A stretch of DNA of 64,000 nt. Source: Acrocarpospora corrugata. Lineage in GTDB: Bacteria > Actinomycetota > Actinomycetes > Streptosporangiales > Streptosporangiaceae. This document shows positions 1,308 to 15,509 of this stretch, in pieces. The DNA lies in the NCBI RefSeq assembly GCF_009687845.1, contig NZ_BLAD01000046.1:62001-126000 (forward strand), given 5' to 3'. The translations under genes and the position numbers were made by a program. Under the pieces are notes generated by a model. It had not been told where the DNA came from and ran no database searches. It was given only the letters and a program-made list of their open reading frames with translations. Each line of letters starts with the position of its first letter. Positions within the stretch are counted from its first letter, which is position 1.

Positions 1308-2842
1308 CCACACTCGATCCCACCCATCCCGCCGCCACCGCCGACCTGCTCGGCGAGGCATGGCAGGCCGCCCTGGGCGCGGCCCCCTCCGGACCCGACG
1401 CGGACTTCTTCGCCGAGGGCGGCGACTCCCTGCTGGCCGTCCGGATGCTGAGCCGGCTGCGGCAGGCCCGCGTCACCGCGACCCCGGCCGACATCCTGCG
1501 CGGGCGCACGTACGGCGGCATTCTGGCCCGGCTCGAAGCCAACCGGGAGGAACCCGCAGTCCCGGCGGGGGAAGCGGGGCCCGGCGCGGTGCCGCTGCTG
1601 GCCGCGCAGCGCCGCTGGACCGCCAAGGGATTCACCGATCCCGACCACTTCTCGCTCGGCTGGATCTTCGAAGTGCCCGAGCGGACACCGCGCGGCCAGA
1701 CGGTGCACAGCGCCGCCGTGGAGGCCGCGGTGCTGGCCCTGGTGCGCAGGCACGAAGCCCTGCGCACCCGCTACCTGCTCGACGGCGAAGGCGGGCCACG
1801 CGCCGAGGTGCTCCCCGGCCCGCCGGACGGCCTGTTCCAGCGGGTGGACGTGCCCGACGACCAGGTGACCGGCGTGCTGCTGGACGGCTGGCGGGCGCAC
1901 CGGCTGGCCGAGGGACGCGTGCTGGCCGCCCGCTGGCTGCCCGCCCAGCGGCTGCTCCAGCTCGCCCTGCACCATCTGACGCTCGACGGCTTCTCCGTCG
2001 AACTCCTCGCCGACGACCTGGAGGCCCTGCTCGTCGGCGCCGAGCCGGTGGCCGACCCCGGCACGCCGCGCGGTCACGCCCGGGCAGTGTCCGCGTGGCT
2101 GACCTCGGCGGAGGCCAAGCAGGACGCAGAAGCATGGGCGGATCAGAACTGGGCGGAGGTCCGCCCGGTGCCGGTCGAGATGACCGGCCCAGGGCTGCTT
2201 CCCAGCATGGACACCGTGGGAGCCGAACTGGGGGCCCGGGAGACGGCCGCGGTCCAGCGGCTGGCCACCCGGCACGACCTCACGTTCGAGTCACTGGTGC
2301 TGGCCGCCGCCGGCAACGCGATCGCGGAACGGTTCGGCCTGCCCGCCGTGACCGTGGACACCTACCACCACGGGCGGGACCCACTGCCCGGGGGGCCGGA
2401 CCTCACCTCCGGCATCGGGTACTTCCAGGCCACCTACCCGGTGGTCGTCACGGGCGGCCCGGGTGACTGGCTGCCGCGCGCCGTGGCCGAGTCCGGGCGG
2501 GTGCCGAAGAACCGCTTCGGCTTCGACGCGCTGCGCTTCGCCGGTCACGACGCCCTCGCGAACCTGCCGGGCAGCGGCATCCGGCTCAACTTCCGCAGCC
2601 GGATGAGCGAGATCAACGCCAGGGAGGCGGACTGGCTGCCGCCGTCGAAGGTCTCGGCGGGCGGACGCCGTTCGCCCCGGCAGACGGAGCCGTACGTGCT
2701 GATGCTGGAGGCCGATCAGGTGGGCGAGGGGTTCTCCTTCGCCGTCAAGTTCAGCCGGGACCACTTCACCAGGCAGACGGTCGAGCACCTGGTCAGGGCC
2801 ACGCTGGCGCTGCTCACCGTATCCGGCGGGGTGGAGGCGTGA
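1304..2842 (+). CDS. Stand-alone NRPS carrier-condensation didomain protein
   Basis: A 512-residue protein starting at ATG 1304 inside the MFS stop codon. Residues about 10-80 form a peptidyl carrier domain with the phosphopantetheine attachment motif FFAEGGDSLL (Ser42). Residues about 95-510 form a condensation domain whose HHLTLDG motif (residues 223-229) matches the family HHxxxDG; His224 is the expected catalytic base. No adenylation or thioesterase domain is present, so the carrier must be loaded in trans. Such free PCP-C proteins condense an aminoacyl or acyl thioester with an acceptor amine. It is coupled to the next gene by GTGA at 2839-2842. The longer open frame upstream of 1304 lies in another frame of the MFS gene and is not coding. 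Domain assignment is firm; the substrate is unknown. Confidence 0.85.
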   Translation: MTTLDPTHPAATADLLGEAWQAALGAAPSGPDADFFAEGGDSLLAVRMLSRLRQARVTATPADILRGRTYGGILARLEANREEPAVPAGEAGPGAVPLLAAQRRWTAKGFTDPDHFSLGWIFEVPERTPRGQTVHSAAVEAAVLALVRRHEALRTRYLLDGEGGPRAEVLPGPPDGLFQRVDVPDDQVTGVLLDGWRAHRLAEGRVLAARWLPAQRLLQLALHHLTLDGFSVELLADDLEALLVGAEPVADPGTPRGHARAVSAWLTSAEAKQDAEAWADQNWAEVRPVPVEMTGPGLLPSMDTVGAELGARETAAVQRLATRHDLTFESLVLAAAGNAIAERFGLPAVTVDTYHHGRDPLPGGPDLTSGIGYFQATYPVVVTGGPGDWLPRAVAESGRVPKNRFGFDALRFAGHDALANLPGSGIRLNFRSRMSEINAREADWLPPSKVSAGGRRSPRQTEPYVLMLEADQVGEGFSFAVKFSRDHFTRQTVEHLVRATLALLTVSGGVEA

Positions 2843-4248
2843 GCTCCCGCCGGCCGTTCGCGCTGGAGCTGCGGGACGTCGTGCTGTCCCTCGGGCCGCC
2901 GGGCGGGGAGCGGGTGCTGCTGCGCGGGGCCGACCTCCAGGTTCGCGAGGGTGAGTCGGTCCTGCTCTCCGGCCTGGACGGCGAAGCCCGCCGCGGCCTG
3001 ACCGCCCTGCTGGAGGGCAGGATGCCGCCCACGTACGGGACGGTCAGCGTCGGCAGGGGCACCACGGTGCTGGACGCCGGGGACCGGCCCGGCAGCGTGA
3101 CGGTGGCCGGCGAGGCGAGCAGCGTGATCGTCCTGGCCGGGCAGGACGGGGAAGGGCCGCCGGGCCGGTTCCGGTCCCTGCGGCTGGACGGCGGGCAGTT
3201 CGTCGAGTCCCCGGCCGGCCGCGTCCCGCTGGCCGAACTGCACCGCCGTACGGTGGCCGCGCTGCTGGCCGCGGGGGTCGGGGAGGAGGCCGCGGAAGCC
3301 GCGGGCGGCGTGCTGGTGGACGCGGAACGGCGGGGTCACCGATCCCATGGCGTCGCGTTGCTGCCCACCTACCTGCGGCGGATCCGGGACGGCGGGATCC
3401 GCGCCGGGAGCCTGCCGCGCCTCACCGAGATCACTCCCGCCCTCGCGTCCGTCGACGCGGGCGGCGGGCTCGGCCAGCCCGCCGCCCGGCTGGCGGCCGA
3501 CTGGTGCGCGGCCAGGGCCGCCGAGCACGGGCTGGCGGCCGTCGCGGTCCACGACAACAACCACGTCGGCATGCTCGCCGCCTACCGGCACGCCTTCCAG
3601 CGGCATCAGGTGGTGGGGTTCCTGCTCAACACCTCGGGGCCCTCGATCGCCGCTCCCGGCGCCGCCGTACCGACCCTGGGCAGTAACGCGATCTGCCTGG
3701 TCACGCCCTCAGCGGCGGGCGCGGAGCCGTTCTGCGTGGACCTGGCCACCGGAGTCGTCGCCGCCGGCAAGATCAGGGACGCCGCGAACCGGGGGGTGCC
3801 GGTGCCGCCTGGCTGGCTCCAGGACGCGTCCGGCGCGCCCAGCACCGATCCGGGCGATCTCGACCGGGACGGGGCCATTCCCCTGTTCGGCGGGTACAAG
3901 GGCCTGTGCGTCACCCTGCTGGCCGAGATCCTGGCCGGCGCGCTCGCCGGCCACCGGGTCAGCCCGGACGTCGGCAAGCAGCGTAAGCAGCCGGAGCGGG
4001 TGATGGGCTGCTCCCAGCTGTTCGTCGGCTTCTCCACTGGGCACTTCGCGGCCCCCGGTTCGGGCGGCCTGGGTCTGGATGGATTCGTGGACCGGCTTCG
4101 CGGAGCCGTACTGGACGGTCATCCGGGCGTGCCCGCCCGGCCCTGGTTCCCCGACCAGCCGGAGGAGGACCACGCGGCGGACGCCGACGCCCGCGGAGTC
4201 GAGGTGCCGGCGTCCGTGCTGGCCGAACTCGGGTGGGCGCTCCCGTGA
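2839..4248 (+). CDS. Fusion: degenerate ABC-ATPase N-terminal half plus Ldh2-type NAD(P)H oxidoreductase
   Basis: A 469-residue protein with two unrelated parts. Residues 1-120 read like the start of an ABC nucleotide-binding domain (LELRDVVLSLG, then VLLRGADLQVREGESVLL), but the Walker A loop is replaced by SGLDGEARRGLTALLEG, with no GKS/T, and Walker B, signature and H-loop are absent. Residues about 125-469 are a full malate/L-lactate dehydrogenase (Ldh2/YlbC/DpkA) domain: SHG (169-171), DNNHVG (239-244), a Lys at 311 and FGGYKG (350-355). That family includes imine reductases acting on pyrroline/piperideine carboxylates as well as 2-keto acid reductases, so reduction of a cyclic imine or keto precursor for the peptide is a reasonable inference. 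The GTG start overlaps the previous TGA. I know of no described protein with this architecture. Confidence 0.75.
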   Translation: MSSRRPFALELRDVVLSLGPPGGERVLLRGADLQVREGESVLLSGLDGEARRGLTALLEGRMPPTYGTVSVGRGTTVLDAGDRPGSVTVAGEASSVIVLAGQDGEGPPGRFRSLRLDGGQFVESPAGRVPLAELHRRTVAALLAAGVGEEAAEAAGGVLVDAERRGHRSHGVALLPTYLRRIRDGGIRAGSLPRLTEITPALASVDAGGGLGQPAARLAADWCAARAAEHGLAAVAVHDNNHVGMLAAYRHAFQRHQVVGFLLNTSGPSIAAPGAAVPTLGSNAICLVTPSAAGAEPFCVDLATGVVAAGKIRDAANRGVPVPPGWLQDASGAPSTDPGDLDRDGAIPLFGGYKGLCVTLLAEILAGALAGHRVSPDVGKQRKQPERVMGCSQLFVGFSTGHFAAPGSGGLGLDGFVDRLRGAVLDGHPGVPARPWFPDQPEEDHAADADARGVEVPASVLAELGWALP

Positions 4249-4982
4249 ACGCCGACCCCACGCTCGGCTCCGCTCCCGGGTGGCCGCTGGTGCTGTACTT
4301 CCACCACGTCAACGCCCTCGTCGACCACTACACCGCGCTCACCCCCGACGGCTTCCGGCGGGCGCTGGAGACGGTGCTCAGCGAGGTCGGCCCCGCCCTC
4401 GACCCGGCCGGCATCGGGCCAGGATTCCGCCCGCCGGACCATCCGGGCGTGCTGCTCACCTTCGACGACGGCTACCGGGACAACCTGGAGATCGCCGCGC
4501 CGCTGCTCGCCGAGTTCGGCGTCAAGGTCCTGCTCTTCTGCGTCACGGGGGAGCTCGACGCCGCCGACCGGCTGAGCGACGCCGAGCGGGCCGCGCTGCC
4601 GCCGCGCCGAAGCTTCCTGACGTGGGCGGAGGCGGACCGGTTCGCCGCGCTCGGCCATGTGCTGTCCGCCCACACCGTCGGCCATCCCAAGCTGCCGGAG
4701 CTGGGACACCGCGAAGCCGCCGAGGAGATCGCGACCTCGCTGGACCGCATTCGGGCGCGGACCGGTGAACCCGCGCGGACGTTCGCCTACCCCTACGGCC
4801 TCATCCCCGAGCGGCCCGCGGTCCTCGCCGGGGTGCTGGCCTTCGGAACCGTCAAATCCCCGCCGACGTCCTGGGCGCACCGCCCACTGCACATCCGCCG
4901 TACCTATCTGCCGGCCGATGAGGGCGAGCGGTGGGCGCGTCTCGCTATTGGTTGGAGAGAGCAGTGGTTCGGATCTCAGTAG
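4245..4982 (+). CDS. Polysaccharide deacetylase (NodB/CE4) family protein
   Basis: A 245-residue protein using GTG 4245, which overlaps the preceding TGA (GTGA); an in-frame GTG at 4233 is less likely. It has CE4 motif 1 (LLTFDDGY, metal-binding and catalytic Asp pair), motif 2 (SAHTVGHPKL, the H-x3-H zinc ligands) and a YPYG motif near the C-terminus. CE4 enzymes remove acetyl groups from N-acetylated sugars or related amides using a divalent metal. There is no signal peptide, so a cytoplasmic substrate is likely, for example an acetylated intermediate of the biosynthetic locus. It overlaps the following glycosyltransferase by 19 bases if that gene starts at 4964. Confidence 0.8.
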   Translation: MNADPTLGSAPGWPLVLYFHHVNALVDHYTALTPDGFRRALETVLSEVGPALDPAGIGPGFRPPDHPGVLLTFDDGYRDNLEIAAPLLAEFGVKVLLFCVTGELDAADRLSDAERAALPPRRSFLTWAEADRFAALGHVLSAHTVGHPKLPELGHREAAEEIATSLDRIRARTGEPARTFAYPYGLIPERPAVLAGVLAFGTVKSPPTSWAHRPLHIRRTYLPADEGERWARLAIGWREQWFGSQ

Positions 4983-5815
4983 TCATCCCCACCCGCGACA
5001 GGGCTTCTGACCTGCGGCGATGTCTGGACGCTCTGGCCGAGTGCGCCCGTCGTCTGGACGGCTCCGCCGGCCGGGCGAAGCTGCATCAGGTCATCGTCGT
5101 GGACGACGCCTCAGCCACCCGGCAGTCCACCGCCGCGGCCAGGTCCTCGCCCCTGCCCGTCGAGATCCTGCGCAACCCCGGCCAGTCGGGGGCGGGCGCC
5201 AGCCGCCGGCTCGGGGTCGAACTGGCCACCGGTGACGTGCTGGCCTTCCTGGACGACGACGCCGCACCGCGCGGCGACTGGCTCATCCGGGCCGCGACGG
5301 TGGACGACGACCATCCGGCGATCACCGGGCGGGTGCTCTGCTTCGACGGCAGCCTGCTCTCCCACGCCCGCCAGGCTCGATACGACGACCGTTACGCCCG
5401 GCTGGAGCGCGACGCCCCGGTCACGTTCTTCGCCGGTGGCAACAGCTCGGTCCTGACCGAGGTCTTCCACGAGGTCGGCGGCTTCTCGCAGGAGGGCACG
5501 GGCGGCGACAACAGCCTGGCCCGCACCCTGGCCGAACGCGGCAGCCCGGTACGGTTCCGGCCGGAACTGGTCATCGCCCACCGCAACGGCAAAGGCTGGG
5601 GACGGGCGCTGTCGGACGCGTGGTCATCGGGACGGCAGCACGCCGCGCCGATGACCGTGGCCGACGGGATGCGAACAGTGCGCGACGGCGGGATCGGGAC
5701 CACGCTGCCGATCCGCGAGGTCAACCGGTTCCTCGGCGCGGTGCACGTCCTGGGCAGGTTCGCGCGCTCACCCGGAGTGCTGGACGCAGAGCTCAGCCGC
5801 GTACACCCGGAGTAG
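4964..5815 (+). CDS. Family 2 glycosyltransferase
   Basis: A 283-residue cytoplasmic GT-A protein. The start chosen is GTG 4964, preceded by GGAGAG at about 4954-4959; an in-frame GTG at 4931 lies deeper in the deacetylase gene. N-terminal ISVVIPTRDRASDLRRCLDAL is the nucleotide-sugar fold start, VVDDAS and FLDDDAAP carry the metal/nucleotide-binding Asp residues, and FFAGGNSSVL is a typical acceptor-side motif. It should transfer a sugar from a nucleotide donor; together with the deacetylase before it this suggests a deacetylated amino sugar on the locus product (inference). Its 3' end overlaps the convergent SARP gene by 48 bases. Confidence 0.8.
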   Translation: MVRISVVIPTRDRASDLRRCLDALAECARRLDGSAGRAKLHQVIVVDDASATRQSTAAARSSPLPVEILRNPGQSGAGASRRLGVELATGDVLAFLDDDAAPRGDWLIRAATVDDDHPAITGRVLCFDGSLLSHARQARYDDRYARLERDAPVTFFAGGNSSVLTEVFHEVGGFSQEGTGGDNSLARTLAERGSPVRFRPELVIAHRNGKGWGRALSDAWSSGRQHAAPMTVADGMRTVRDGGIGTTLPIREVNRFLGAVHVLGRFARSPGVLDAELSRVHPE

Positions 5816-7789
5816 CCCGGTCAGCAGATACCTGTCGCGGGAGTGACGCGTGAGCAGGTGCGCGCCCGCGAGCTCGTCGAGCAGCAGCCGGACGCGGTGC
5901 ACGGGCAGGCCGGTCAGCTCGGCGGCGGCCTGCGGGGTGACGCCGGGATCCAGAAGCGACCCGAGCCGGCGGAACAGCGTAGCCGCGTCCGAACTGAGTG
6001 ACCGGTACGAGGAGGAGAACACGGCCCGCAGGTCGGTGGCGGGATCACCGCCGGTGAGCACGTCCAGGGGCGCGCGCAGGTCGGCGGCCAGCCTGGCGAG
6101 CGGCCGCGCCCCCGTCCTGGCGGCGGCGATGGCCAGCGCCAGTGGCAGTCCCCCGCACTGCTCGATGATCTCCTCGGCCGCGTCGCGTTCCGCGCGCACC
6201 CGCTCCTCGCCGAGCCTGCTCGCCAGCAGGACGTACGCCTCCTCGGGCGGCAACGGGCCGAGGAGCAGCTGATCGGCTCCCTCGGTGATGACCAGCGGCG
6301 TCAGCTGCGTCCTGCTGGTCACCACGGCCACACACCCTGGCGAACCTGGCAGAAGCGGGCGAACATGCGCGGCGTCCCTGGCGTTGTCCAGCACCACGAG
6401 GATCCGCTTGCTCGCGAGCAGACTCCGGTACAGCCCCACCTGGGCCTCCAGCCCAGCGGGAACGGCGTTCGGCGGAGCGGCGAGAGCGTTGAGGAAACCG
6501 TGCAACGCGTCGGCCACGTCCATCGCCGGCCTGCTCGGATCGAACCCCCGCAGGTCGACGTAGAGCTGCCCGTCGGGGAACCGCGCGGCCACCCGCTGCG
6601 CCCAGTGCACGGCCAGCGCGCTCTTCCCCACGCCCGGAGCCCCCGCCAGCGTCAGGATGGCCGTGGTGCCGGGTGCCCGGGTCAGCGCCCGGTCGAGCTG
6701 GCCGAGCTCGGCCAGGCGGCCGATGATCCGGCCTCCTCTGGGCGGCAACTGCGCCGGGATGACAGCACCGGCCGGTCCTGTCAGGCGCGCCCCGCGCGCG
6801 GGCATCGGCGGGGGCGGGTCGAGGGAGGCGTCGTGGTGCAGGATCGCCTCCTCCAGCGCCTGCAACGGCCGCCCCGGAGCGACGCCCAGCTCCTCCCTCA
6901 GCCTGCCGCGAATCTGGTGGAAAACGGATAACGCGTCCGCCTGCCGTCCGGCCCGATACAGCGCGAGCATGAGCTGCCGGTGCAGGTCCTCGTCGAAGGA
7001 GTGCTGGCGGGTGAGGTCCTCCAGTTCGGGAATCAGCGCCGTGTGGTCGCCCAGGTCGAGCCGGGCCTGCGTGAACAGGTTGACCGCGCTCAGGCGGATC
7101 CGTTCGAGCCGCTCGGCCTGCTCGTCCAGCCAGGGGTGGGCGCTGAGCTCGTCGAGCGGTTGGCCGCGCCACAGCGCGAGGGTGTCCTTGAGCAGGGCGA
7201 CGCGCCTTCTCGGGTCGGCGGAGCGCCTCGCCTCGTCGATGAGCTGCTCGGCGATCCGCACATCGGTGGTGACGTCGCCCTGGACCAGGCAGTATCCGGC
7301 CGGGTGCGTGACGATCGACTCCCGCGCCCCGAAGAGCCGGCGCAGATAGGAGATGTGGCTCTGCAAGGTGTTCACTGCCGTGGCCGGCGATTGTCCGCCC
7401 CAGACGATGTCGATCAGCTGATCACAGCTCACCACTTTCCCCATCCGCAGCGCGAGCGTGGCCAGCGCGGTCTTCCTGCGCAGCCCCGAGACACAGTTCG
7501 CGGTAACGCCGAAGAGCGCGTCGAGCGGCCCGAGCAGCCTGACGGTCACCGGCTGCGGAGAGCCTTGGCTCTGTCCCGCCGGTCGGATCTCCGCCCGAGA
7601 AGGAGCGTTGCGGAGGCTCTTCGCGGTGCCCCCCACTGATGCGAGTGCCACGCTGCCCCCTGATCTGGTGTTCACCGCATCAGACTGTCCGCCTCCAGTT
7701 GTGGATGCCTTTGATCTCACTTGCGCGGGTGACGGCGTGGCGGGAAGAGATCGCGCGATTGCTTGAAATGCTGGGCCATCCACGCACAT
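5768..7789 (-). CDS. AfsR/SARP-family transcriptional regulator with NB-ARC ATPase domain
   Basis: A 673-residue regulator. After a low-complexity N-terminal stretch of about 80 residues comes an OmpR-type winged helix (VTVRLLGPLDALFGV through YLRRLFG), then the bacterial transcriptional activation domain (about 175-325), then an NB-ARC ATPase with P-loop GAPGVGKS (about residue 383) and GGLPLAL. There is no TPR tail as in AfsR. SARPs activate antibiotic clusters, so it probably controls the genes at 48-5815, to which it is convergent. Leu287 is encoded by TTA (plus-strand 6929-6931), a rare codon that makes translation depend on the bldA tRNA in streptomycetes. The true start may lie downstream of 7789, because the first 80 residues are not conserved in type. 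Confidence 0.82.
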   Translation of the reverse strand: MCVDGPAFQAIARSLPATPSPAQVRSKASTTGGGQSDAVNTRSGGSVALASVGGTAKSLRNAPSRAEIRPAGQSQGSPQPVTVRLLGPLDALFGVTANCVSGLRRKTALATLALRMGKVVSCDQLIDIVWGGQSPATAVNTLQSHISYLRRLFGARESIVTHPAGYCLVQGDVTTDVRIAEQLIDEARRSADPRRRVALLKDTLALWRGQPLDELSAHPWLDEQAERLERIRLSAVNLFTQARLDLGDHTALIPELEDLTRQHSFDEDLHRQLMLALYRAGRQADALSVFHQIRGRLREELGVAPGRPLQALEEAILHHDASLDPPPPMPARGARLTGPAGAVIPAQLPPRGGRIIGRLAELGQLDRALTRAPGTTAILTLAGAPGVGKSALAVHWAQRVAARFPDGQLYVDLRGFDPSRPAMDVADALHGFLNALAAPPNAVPAGLEAQVGLYRSLLASKRILVVLDNARDAAHVRPLLPGSPGCVAVVTSRTQLTPLVITEGADQLLLGPLPPEEAYVLLASRLGEERVRAERDAAEEIIEQCGGLPLALAIAAARTGARPLARLAADLRAPLDVLTGGDPATDLRAVFSSSYRSLSSDAATLFRRLGSLLDPGVTPQAAAELTGLPVHRVRLLLDELAGAHLLTRHSRDRYLLTGLLRVYAAELCVQHSG
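6929..6931 (-). promoter_or_regulatory. TTA codon in the SARP gene (candidate bldA-type control)
   Basis: The minus strand reads GAC GCG TTA TCC GTT here, coding Asp-Ala-Leu-Ser-Val in the BTAD domain. TTA is the rarest codon in GC-rich actinomycetes and is concentrated in pathway regulators under bldA control in Streptomyces. That the same logic applies to this organism is inference. Confidence 0.6.
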
Positions 7790-12932: not shown

Positions 12933-13191
12933 CGTGCGCGCGGTAGACGTGGGCGAGCGCGGGGTCGGCGGTGGCGATGATCGTGACGATTCTGGTCAGG
13001 ACGCGGGGGCTGGCCCCGGGGTCGCCGATCGTGAGGGCGAGTAGGCCGCTGCCCTGGAGACGGCCGATGCCGTAGTCGGCGGCCGGGCAGGGGTCCGCAG
13101 CCAGATCGCCGGCCAGCGCGCGGGCCGCGGCGAGGGCGTCCGGGCCGGCCGGACGTTGTTCGTGCAGGTGAGCGGCTGGACTGGTGGGCAT
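12904..13191 (-). CDS. Small hypothetical protein (95 aa)
   Basis: ATG 13191 is preceded by AGGAGGTGGACC, an excellent ribosome binding site, which is the main reason to believe the gene. The product begins MPTSPAAHLHEQ, is Ala-rich and has a core LLALTIGDPGASPRVLTRIV that could be a small alpha/beta unit. I do not recognise a family. It converges on the CoA-binding gene with a 29-base overlap. The inverted repeat ATGTAT...ATACAT (about 13222-13245) lies between it and the next, divergent gene. Confidence 0.5.
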   Translation of the reverse strand: MPTSPAAHLHEQRPAGPDALAAARALAGDLAADPCPAADYGIGRLQGSGLLALTIGDPGASPRVLTRIVTIIATADPALAHVYRAHVTGARRGRT

Positions 13192-13323
13192 GGTCCACCT
13201 CCTGGGCGAGTCGGCCTATTTCATGTATATCAGGTCGCCAATACATCGAAGGTCAGGATTGATGATAAAACCTTCTTTTCCTACAGTATAAGTAGGCAAT
13301 GTGCTTATGGAGAGGTGATCTCC

Positions 13324-13689
13324 TTGTTCCCCTACCGCCGTATCGCCGCCCTGACCGCCCTGTTAGCTCTGGCCGCCGCGTGCGGCTCCCCCGCCGCCCC
13401 CGCCCAGCAGGCCGGTACGGGCGCACTCGTCAGCGGCGGAACGCTGGTCTTCGGCGTCAACACCGAGCCGCTCAACCTGGACCCGTACGCCAGCCCCCAG
13501 GACGTGACCGCCCTGTTCACCCGCCCGGCCCTCGACTCCCTGGTCGCCCTCGACGACAAGGGCGGCATGCACCCGTGGCTCGCCACCTCCTGGGAGATCT
13601 CGCCGGACGGGAAGACCTACACCTTCAAGCTCCGCGAGGGCGCACTTACGGCATTCGCCTCCGGGCGAGGCGGTGATCGAGGCACATGA
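13324..13689 (+). pseudogene. Truncated peptide/nickel-type solute-binding lipoprotein
   Basis: From TTG 13324 (GGAGAGGTG upstream) the frame encodes a lipoprotein signal ending in the lipobox LAAAC, then GGTLVFGVNTEPLNLDPYAS, PALDSLVALDDKG and SWEISPDGKTYTFKLREG, the classical N-terminus of family-5 binding proteins (SBP_bac_5). Homology stops at about 13640 after roughly 105 of the usual 500+ residues. The frame then runs through unrelated sequence to TGA 13687-13689. A promoter-like TTGATG (13259) with TACAGT after 17 bases remains upstream, so the stub may still be transcribed. It is the first piece of a collapsed transporter/monooxygenase operon. Confidence 0.75.
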
Positions 13690-13720
13690 CCTGGTCAAGG
13701 CCTTCCGGGGCCGGACCGCC
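13673..13720 (+). pseudogene. Fragment of an ABC transporter ATPase N-terminus
   Basis: From GTG 13673 the frame reads VIEAHDLVKAFRGR, the start of a peptide/nickel-type ABC ATPase (such as DppD/F, where a similar VxxLxKxF stretch precedes Walker A). After about 14 codons it changes into another gene fragment. The short length limits confidence, but an ATPase remnant directly after a matching solute-binding stub is the expected order of such operons. Confidence 0.5.
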
Positions 13721-13721
13721 G

Positions 13722-13811
13722 TCGCTGCTCCAGGAGAAGGGCGTCTTCCGCGCCGACTACACCGGCCCCACCCTCCGCGACCACCTGGGCCTCACCAAGG
13801 AGCCGTCATGA
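13722..13811 (+). pseudogene. C-terminal fragment of an NtaA/SnaA-type flavin monooxygenase
   Basis: Twenty-nine codons read SLLQEKGVFRADYTGPTLRD and end HLGLTKEPS before TGA 13809-13811. This is the conserved end of NtaA/SnaA/DszA luciferase-like monooxygenases, which usually finish with a Tyr-x-Gly-x-Thr-Leu-Arg-Asp/Glu-His/Asn-Leu-Gly-Leu pattern. The rest of the gene is missing. Its TGA overlaps the ATG of the next monooxygenase remnant (ATGA), so the operon was translationally coupled before decay. Confidence 0.65.
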
Positions 13812-15509
13812 CAGCGAACCCGGCACCCCTGCATCTGGCGGTGGCCCCTGGACGGGGCCGGCTGGCACCCGGCCGCCTGGCGGGCCGAAGACGCCCGCCC
13901 CCACCACCTGTTCACGGCCGCGTACTGGGCCGGACTGGTCCTGGAAGCCGAGCGCGGCCTGCTCGACTGGGTCACCTTCGAGGACTCGCTCGGCCTGCGG
14001 TCCTCCAGGTTCGACGGCCCCGACGACCGTCTTGACCAGGTGCGCGGCCGGCTGGACGCGGTCCTGCTGGCCGCCGCCGTGGCGCCGCTGACCTCCAGGA
14101 TCGGGCTGATCCCCACCATCAGTGTCACCCACACCGAGCCGTTCCACGCGGCGATCGGCATCGCCTCGCTCGACCACGCCAGCCGCGGCCGGGCCGGCTG
14201 GCGGCCCCGCGTCTCGGGACGTCCCGACGAGGCCGGGCACTTCGGGCGGCGGTCCTTCCCGCCGCTGGATCTGGCCGACCCGGGGATCCTGGCCCAGATC
14301 GGGAACCTGTTCCGGGAGGCGGGTGACGCGGTGGAGGCGGTCCGGCGGCTGTGGGACAGCTGGGAGGACGACGCCGAGATCCGCGATGCCGCGACCGGGC
14401 GGTTCGTCGACAGGGACCGGCTGCACTACATCGACTTCGAGGGCGAGTTCTTCAAGGTCAAGGGGCCGTCCATCACGCCGAGGTCGCCGCAGGGGCAGCC
14501 GCTGGTGACCTCGCTCGGGCATGACGTGGTGCCGTACGAGTTCGCGGCGGGTTCCGCCGACGTGTTGTACATCACGCCGCACGGCGAGGACGACGCGCGG
14601 CGCATCCGGGTCGGCTCCGGGGCCGTGCAGCTGGGCCACCAGACCGCGCTGGGCGTCGTCGAGCAGTTCGGCATCCTGGAGGCCCTGCACCCCGGCCGGA
14701 TCGATCTCGGGCTCGGGCGGTCCGGGCAGCGGGTCAAAGAGCCGCGGTCCGAACCTCCGGCGCCGCCGCCGGCCGAGTCGCGGATCGTGAACGGGCTGCT
14801 CATTCCGCCGCCGTTCTCGTTCGCCTCGATCGCGAAGTCGCCGATCATCCGGCTGTGGGCGACGATGCTCCAGCAGCCGGGCGCCGAGTCGCCGGACTTC
14901 GCCGAACAGGTGGACGACATCCGGGCGCTGATCGCCGGGACGTACCGGTCGGAGGAGGGGTTCGAGGCGCACGCGCAGCCCGGGGAGGGGGCCGAGCTGG
15001 AGCTGTGGGTGCAGCGGCGGGCAGAGCGCGCAGGTGGCCGCGGAGCGGGGGCTGCCGTTCGCGGCCACCTACCACGTCAGCCCGGCCAGTCTGCTGGAGG
15101 CGGTGGAAGCCTACCGGGAGGCGTTCAAGCCGTCCGAGATCCTGGCCGCGCCGCATGTGATGGTCTCCGCCGACGTGGTGGTTGCCGAGACCGACGCCGA
15201 GGCGCGGCGGGTGGCGGAGCCGTACGGGCTGTGGGTGCGGAGCATTCGCACCCGCGCCGGGGCGATGGCCTTCCGTCGCCGGCGGAGGCGGCGGCCTTCG
15301 AGTAGACCGAGGAGGACCGCACCCTGGTCGCCGACCGGCTGGACACCCAGTTCGTCGGCTCGCCGCAGGCTGTGGTGGAGCGGCTGCGGGTGCTGCGGGA
15401 GGCGACCGGGGCGGACGAGTCGCTGGTCACCACGATCACCCATGACCACGCCGACCGGGTGCGGTCGCAGGATCTGCCGGCGGCCGCCTGGGCGGAGGAG
15501 GCCGGGTGA
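13808..15509 (+). pseudogene. Chimeric, multiply frameshifted luciferase-like (LLM) monooxygenase
   Basis: ATG 13808 opens MTANPAPLHLAVA, then an extra C in the run at 13844-13847 shifts the frame; the correct frame resumes with LDGAGWHPAAWRAEDARPHH. Residues up to about 14610 (GEDDARRIR) are an NtaA/SnaA-type monooxygenase. From VGSGAVQLGHQTALGVVEQF onward the sequence is the middle of an MsnO8-type LLM protein, so two paralogous genes were joined. Further lesions follow: a frame change near 15012-15025 before GQSAQVAAERG, a missing base near 15272, and an in-frame TAG at 15303-15305 where relatives have Tyr. Recognisable coding sequence continues to TGA 15507-15509. Function is almost certainly lost. 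Confidence 0.8.

Follow-up and report, generated by a model that had tools for sequence, protein, structure and literature searches.

An apparently ABC-derived miniature domain fused to an Ldh2-type oxidoreductase in a conserved gene cassette of soil actinobacteria

What is a protein that begins like the nucleotide-binding domain of an ATP-binding cassette (ABC) ATPase and ends as a complete oxidoreductase? The question is raised by a gene at positions 2839-4248 (+) of a 64,000-nucleotide stretch of the Acrocarpospora corrugata genome (contig NZ_BLAD01000046.1, positions 62,001 to 126,000), called the window here. The gene is a single open frame of 469 amino acids with start codon GTG. An earlier reading made from the letters alone, the sequence-only reading, had taken it for an in-frame fusion with uniform codon bias, coupled to both neighbours by GTGA. 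The junction bases confirm that both ends overlap the neighbours through GTGA, and the GC content at third codon positions is 0.97 in the N-terminal and 0.91 in the C-terminal part. At E<=1, Pfam recognizes Ldh_2 in the window protein (residues 130-464, profile positions 2-332 of 333, E 4.8e-78) and nothing else. NCBIfam gives weak ABC matches only, with E 0.03-0.2, within residues 8-73.

This fusion is genuine, and several genera of soil actinobacteria have kept it. An assembly join or a frameshift as its origin is rejected, because 15 distinct genomes, the window's own counted, carry the same two-part architecture at full length. A first scan of named genomes gave three near-full-length homologues, with best-segment identities to the window protein of 79% (Microbispora catharanthi), 75% (Nonomuraea cavernae) and 51% (Actinomadura sp. 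OS1-43). A four-member profile of these and the window protein served for searches of the order and the class. The order search, which scored the four best candidates per genome, found the full-length fusion in 11 of 345 genomes at E 8e-161 or better, the window and the first three homologues included; the next matches have E 1e-56 or weaker, start at profile positions of at least 131 and cover the second part only. In the class, 3 of 394 genomes carry the fusion (E 7.6e-145 or better), one of them new. With a 12-member profile, the family of this new genome yielded 4 of 394 (E 1.8e-186 or better; three new) and the phylum 2 of 396 (none new); the genome sets of the order, class, family and phylum searches overlap. 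Beyond the 15 genomes, a plasmid of Streptomyces albidoflavus carries a P-loop-less fusion of 521 residues among largely the same neighbour genes. Two more Streptomyces plasmid matches (H3 and H4) lie outside the comparison. In a tree of the Ldh2 part, the 15 fusions stand on one side of a branch with support 100/100, opposite 17 other Ldh2 rows that include three duplicates. A second tree, with six of the 17 outgroup rows omitted (three duplicates and three long branches), returns the fusions' group again at 100/100.

The N-terminal part (residues ~1-126; 2839-3216, +) had been read as half of an ABC domain, namely its start. The alignments contradict this: both flanks of an ABC domain align and the middle is missing, and the N-terminal ~125 residues are best described as an internally deleted whole domain. 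Taken by itself, the window sequence makes a weak case for an ABC assignment, because NCBIfam offers only the E-values given above; the assignment becomes firm once relatives are added. Pfam ABC_tran matches at E<=1 in 7 of the 12 members scanned (best 7.4e-8), and a profile of the six members with a P-loop matches solved ABC domains in the PDB, the best at 2.4e-9. The best 60 of 368 PDB matches were inspected and all are ABC proteins; an origin from an adenosine 5'-phosphosulfate kinase-like P-loop protein was dropped. Two alignments were examined, and each consists of two collinear pieces. Residues 343-394 and 493-547 of 5mkk correspond to profile positions 11-62 and 65-118, and residues 22-81 and 192-237 of 9ge6 to positions 3-62 and 73-119, the second pieces being weak on their own (7-9 bits). 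Relative to these structures, ~98-110 residues are missing between the flanks, which we take from ABC anatomy to be the place of the Q-loop, the helical subdomain and the signature.

A motif scan found no ABC signature in any of the 15 members; the member alignment has no H-loop His, and the Q-loop region and the catalytic Glu are likewise missing in alignments. Walker A (GARGAGKS twice, GGQGSGKS, GERGSGKS, AARGSGKS and AAQGAGKS) is kept in six members, whose Walker B has DDAD at its end, 26 residues downstream of the Lys in Walker A. The other nine have lost Walker A. Among them is the window copy, in which, as the sequence-only reading had seen, residues 44-54 (2968-3000, +) read SGLDGEARRGL where the six members align GxxGxGKS or AxxGxGKS. 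The term pseudo-ATPase therefore suits the window copy and fails as a family trait, since 6 of 15 retain the P-loop and DDAD. Compared with ABC transporter nucleotide-binding domains (PF00005; YbbA, TmrAB, MacB), the fusions share the N- and C-terminal fold flanks, to which the six members add Walker A and the DD of Walker B. The fusions lack the internal residues and the signature, are joined to an enzyme and have in 9 of 15 members lost Walker A.

The N-terminal domain would descend from an ABC ATPase through loss of the helical subdomain, and because of this ABC origin the P-loop-bearing state is expected to be ancestral. In the two trees the six P-loop-bearing members form one group, with support 67/38 in the first and 92/92 in the second. 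The P-loop-less G449 group joins the S. albidoflavus plasmid copy. If the P-loop is ancestral, the G449 group and that of the window would have lost it separately, which makes two losses at least. Pairwise Nei-Gojobori ratios of nonsynonymous to synonymous substitution (dN/dS), taken with no significance test for 13 pairs in four groups (12 of the 15 members; G144, G867 and G329 ungrouped), are 0.00-0.56 for residues 1-72, 0.10-0.75 for residues 73-126 and 0.15-0.42 for the Ldh2 part; the nine P-loop-less pairs give 0.19-0.56 and 0.28-0.75 for the two N-terminal segments. By these ratios the N-terminal domain is under constraint and its second half less so.

The C-terminal part (residues 130-469 plus stop; 3226-4248, +) is an Ldh2-type, presumably NAD(P)-dependent oxidoreductase domain by Pfam, PDB matches and conservation, and Ldh_2 matches in all 12 members scanned of the 15. 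Active-site and cofactor residues of AllD, including His44 and His116, and the substrate-binding Arg48 are given in the AllD study (PMC3527362), and these were mapped onto the window protein by motif, without structure superposition. H170 and H242, the counterparts of His44 and His116, are conserved in 15/15 members, as are P290, D301 and K354 at AllD cofactor positions; T289, also at such a position, is kept in 12. The enzyme is probably active, on a substrate different from that of AllD. With the known family (Ldh2/L-sulfolactate dehydrogenase-like, PF02615; AllD, ComC, YiaK, DpkA) the fusions share the whole domain, the catalytic histidines and most of the checked cofactor residues; they differ in the added ABC-derived N-terminus, in a Leu at the AllD Arg48 position and in their own tree group. 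As a system the fusion is not new in kind; it adds a new variant to Ldh2. The sequence-only reading had called the domain Ldh2/DpkA-type. Its first half stands and its second is too specific, as the best-matching solved structures are other Ldh2 members and Arg48 is replaced by Leu throughout.

Which reaction the enzyme might serve is suggested by its neighbours. Genes for a Gfo/Idh dehydrogenase, two TIM-barrel-type proteins (TIM1 and TIM2), a sulfotransferase, a deacetylase and a family 2 glycosyltransferase (GT2) are present in 15/15 fusion loci, that of the window counted, and a VOC (glyoxalase-family) gene in 14. TIM1 has no Pfam match and was called a TIM barrel by eye; the G867 contig stops ~300 bases beyond Gfo/Idh, and part of it was covered. 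The fusion lies directly before the deacetylase gene in 12 of the 15 loci; in G449, G916 and G848 it has another place within the cassette. In the window, the polysaccharide-deacetylase-family gene occupies 4245-4982 (+; Pfam) and the GT2 gene 4931-5815 (+; Pfam, start codon tentative). The best matches of TIM2 (IolE and IolO) and of Gfo/Idh (IolG) are weak; these Iol-type matches suggest that the cassette carries out sugar or sugar-acid chemistry. The genes for non-ribosomal peptide synthetases (NRPS) and polyketide synthases (PKS) beside the cassette vary, and NRPS genes are absent in some loci. The proposal of a tailoring-type oxidoreductase in an NRPS/PKS cluster is supported. Literature searches found no published description of the architecture or the cassette, in line with the claim that the architecture is undescribed, and no assigned product for the cassette; a bulgecin-like product was dropped after they gave no link to it. 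Common to varied NRPS/PKS clusters and to plasmids, this cassette of about seven further genes can be found with the fusion gene as a handle.

Some cassettes dispense with the fusion. A TIM2 anchor search at E<=1e-60, a check unbiased toward the fusion, returned 13 of the 345 genomes of the order, namely the 11 fusion genomes and two others, G257 and G275. Both contain the seven cassette genes and, in the order profile search, no fusion at E<=1e-50. The slot directly before the deacetylase is filled by a gene of the FMN_dh family, that of flavin mononucleotide (FMN)-dependent 2-hydroxyacid dehydrogenases (Pfam E 5.8e-117 and 2.6e-118). Its closest NCBIfam family is MftD of mycofactocin biosynthesis (298 bits, cut-off 471), and the GT2 of the window is similarly closest to MftF of the same pathway (105 bits, cut-off 280); both scores are far below the curated cut-offs. 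No other mycofactocin genes turned up in the scans, which were not aimed at them. FMN_dh may have replaced the fusion secondarily in G257 and G275, whose placement has weak support (64 and 61). In these FMN-type clusters (L073 655-4653; L074 1478-5491), a DrrA-type ABC ATPase gene and a P450-like gene precede the FMN dehydrogenase, and in L074 a permease-like gene accompanies the ATPase; the two upstream genes are established in G257 and similar by eye in G275. A full ATPase encoded separately had been named as evidence against a genuine fusion system. The DrrA-type protein is not favoured as a free counterpart of the miniature domain, being the lowest of 11 ABC proteins with 10-11 against 23-55 bits, scored with the six-member profile in a comparison in which three of 14 sources gave no row; no search was aimed at a free-standing miniature domain.

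The Ldh2 part does exist as a separate gene. The Streptomyces plasmid pFRL2 bears the same cassette with an unfused Ldh2 of 351 residues and a nucleotide-sugar dehydrogenase. This gene may be ancestral to the fusions or derived from them; a topology with all fusions as one clade has p 0.296 in the approximately unbiased test. The pFRL2 region (L079 7143-19855; plasmid typed mobilizable) holds the whole cassette together with enolase-superfamily and phenylacetate-CoA-ligase-family genes, and a SIR2-family gene adjoins. On the S. albidoflavus plasmid (L080 24451-27247), cysC, cysD and sulfate adenylyltransferase genes lie inside the cluster. They fit a supply of 3'-phosphoadenosine 5'-phosphosulfate for the sulfotransferase and would be consistent with sulfation.

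Two partnerships for the fusion were considered. A carrier-condensation (T-C) protein adjoins it in the window, as the sequence-only reading had stressed, and the link is loose, since the constant neighbours are the cassette genes. With the adenylation-carrier (A-T) or T-C query a match appears near 14 of the 15 fusions; there is none on the 43-kb contig of G144, nor in the stretches searched in pFRL2, where Ldh2 is unfused, and in the two loci of FMN type. These loci make it less likely that the fusion serves to dock the carrier-condensation protein, and a loose link is possible. The miniature domain as a transporter partner is not favoured, as the fusion loci have a major facilitator superfamily (MFS) gene; two ABC ATPase genes in the S. 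albidoflavus plasmid cluster temper this argument.

Sequence comparison establishes the two-part architecture with its conservation, the lost residues and the cassette, and from it we infer which class of reaction is catalysed, in which direction and on what substrate, as well as what the N-terminal domain does. With slightly better than even confidence, we favour an NAD(P)-dependent 2-hydroxy/2-oxo-acid oxidoreductase that works in a sugar-tailoring cassette with a sulfotransferase and carries a non-hydrolysing, ABC-derived accessory domain. The Ldh2 domain would convert a 2-hydroxyacid, or a 2-hydroxyamide, into the 2-oxo form or back again, using NAD(P) and its conserved histidines. Its substrate could be a sugar-acid-like intermediate made by the Gfo/Idh dehydrogenase, the two TIM barrels and the VOC, sulfotransferase, deacetylase and GT2 proteins, in a cassette whose partner NRPS or PKS genes vary. 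What points to the 2-hydroxyacid class is the FMN_dh-family gene found in the slot in G257 and G275. The N-terminal domain of the window would not bind nucleotide in the usual way and may be a folding, oligomerisation or docking module; in this copy the ABC-derived part is probably a structural or docking domain only.

Several observations weigh against this explanation. FMN enzymes of the FMN_dh family include MftD, which acts on an amine, and since MftD is the best sub-cut-off match of the slot gene, the replacement is no proof of 2-hydroxyacid chemistry. L174 of the window protein stands at the position of AllD Arg48, and as Leu is found there in 15/15 members, the substrate may bind unlike classical 2-hydroxyacids. 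The N-terminal domain may be dispensable, because the unfused Ldh2 presumably works in the pFRL2 cassette, and its residues 73-126 could be decaying. AlphaFold returned two models, from four sequences each, with low mean pLDDT confidence scores of 56 and 53. Within the Actinomadura model, residues 31-100 average 70-82 in ten-residue blocks. Foldseek places ABC proteins from E 8e-5, along with Ldh2 structures, beside this low-confidence model, and ABC matches from E 3e-4 beside the likewise low-confidence model of the window protein.

An unlikely alternative, close to the chemistry first suggested for the gene, is a cyclic-imine reductase, which would reduce Delta1-pyrroline- or piperideine-2-carboxylate in the manner of DpkA, starting from an amino-sugar acid. 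DpkA (1wtj/2cwh) is counted among the solved relatives of the Ldh2 domain, and with the deacetylase, the GT2 and the pFRL2 nucleotide-sugar dehydrogenase an amino-uronic precursor that cyclises to an imine is conceivable. However, DpkA is not the top-scoring solved relative. Flavoenzymes of the FMN-dependent 2-hydroxyacid dehydrogenase family oxidise, and their presence in the slot of two clusters speaks weakly against the imine chemistry.

The intact P-loops invite a different thought. It is an unlikely idea that an ABC ATPase, shortened to a nucleotide-binding core of ~120 residues, was taken over as a regulatory or docking domain by a metabolic oxidoreductase; in the P-loop clade it would sense ATP/ADP and gate a step toward a sulfated-sugar natural product, and in other lineages, that of the window included, it would be a pure scaffold. 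Were this true, an ABC-derived domain would act outside transport and without forming the canonical sandwich dimer. A related version, in which the miniature domain of this clade binds ATP/ADP and tunes the oxidoreductase and the window copy is a degenerate relic, we judge a little less probable again. It draws on the six members with intact Walker A and invariant DDAD, which form one group; it has against it the signature missing from all 15, the lack of the Q-loop region, H-loop His and catalytic Glu in alignments, and the repeated loss of the P-loop if ancestral. Least probable is a functionless remnant of a gene-fusion accident, which the unfused pFRL2 enzyme and the less constrained residues 73-126 would allow, whereas residues 1-72 are constrained and the domain is kept on one further plasmid and in 15 of 16 Ldh2-bearing cassettes (genomes plus pFRL2), a set with a bias, as the fusion itself was the search target that gave the 15. 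One family offers a natural series in which the miniature ABC domain is intact, degenerate or absent, and in which an ABC core appears reused beside an enzyme.

The remaining genes of the region complete the picture. The window opens with the 3' end of the VOC gene (1-51, +), the remainder of which lies upstream on the same contig, along with thioesterase, A-T, ketosynthase-acyltransferase-acyl carrier protein, ATP-grasp, Gfo/Idh, two TIM-barrel-type and sulfotransferase genes. The MFS transporter gene follows (48-1307, +; Pfam MFS_1); it has matches in the 14 other fusion loci at 30-83% identity, and because of this range its orthology is unsure in the distant ones. Between it and the fusion lies the free carrier-condensation protein (1304-2842, +; Pfam PP-binding and Condensation), coupled through ATGA and GTGA. 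Downstream of the GT2 gene, a Streptomyces antibiotic regulatory protein (SARP)-type regulator with an NB-ARC domain is encoded on the opposite strand (5768-7789, -; Pfam BTAD and NB-ARC); of the 16 other loci compared, the three closest have a match to it. Further along, tandem short frames at 13156-13689 and 13673-14035 appear by eye to be truncated and solute-binding-protein-like and ABC-ATPase-like, and the frames within 13156-14040 resemble remnants of a peptide ABC transporter operon.

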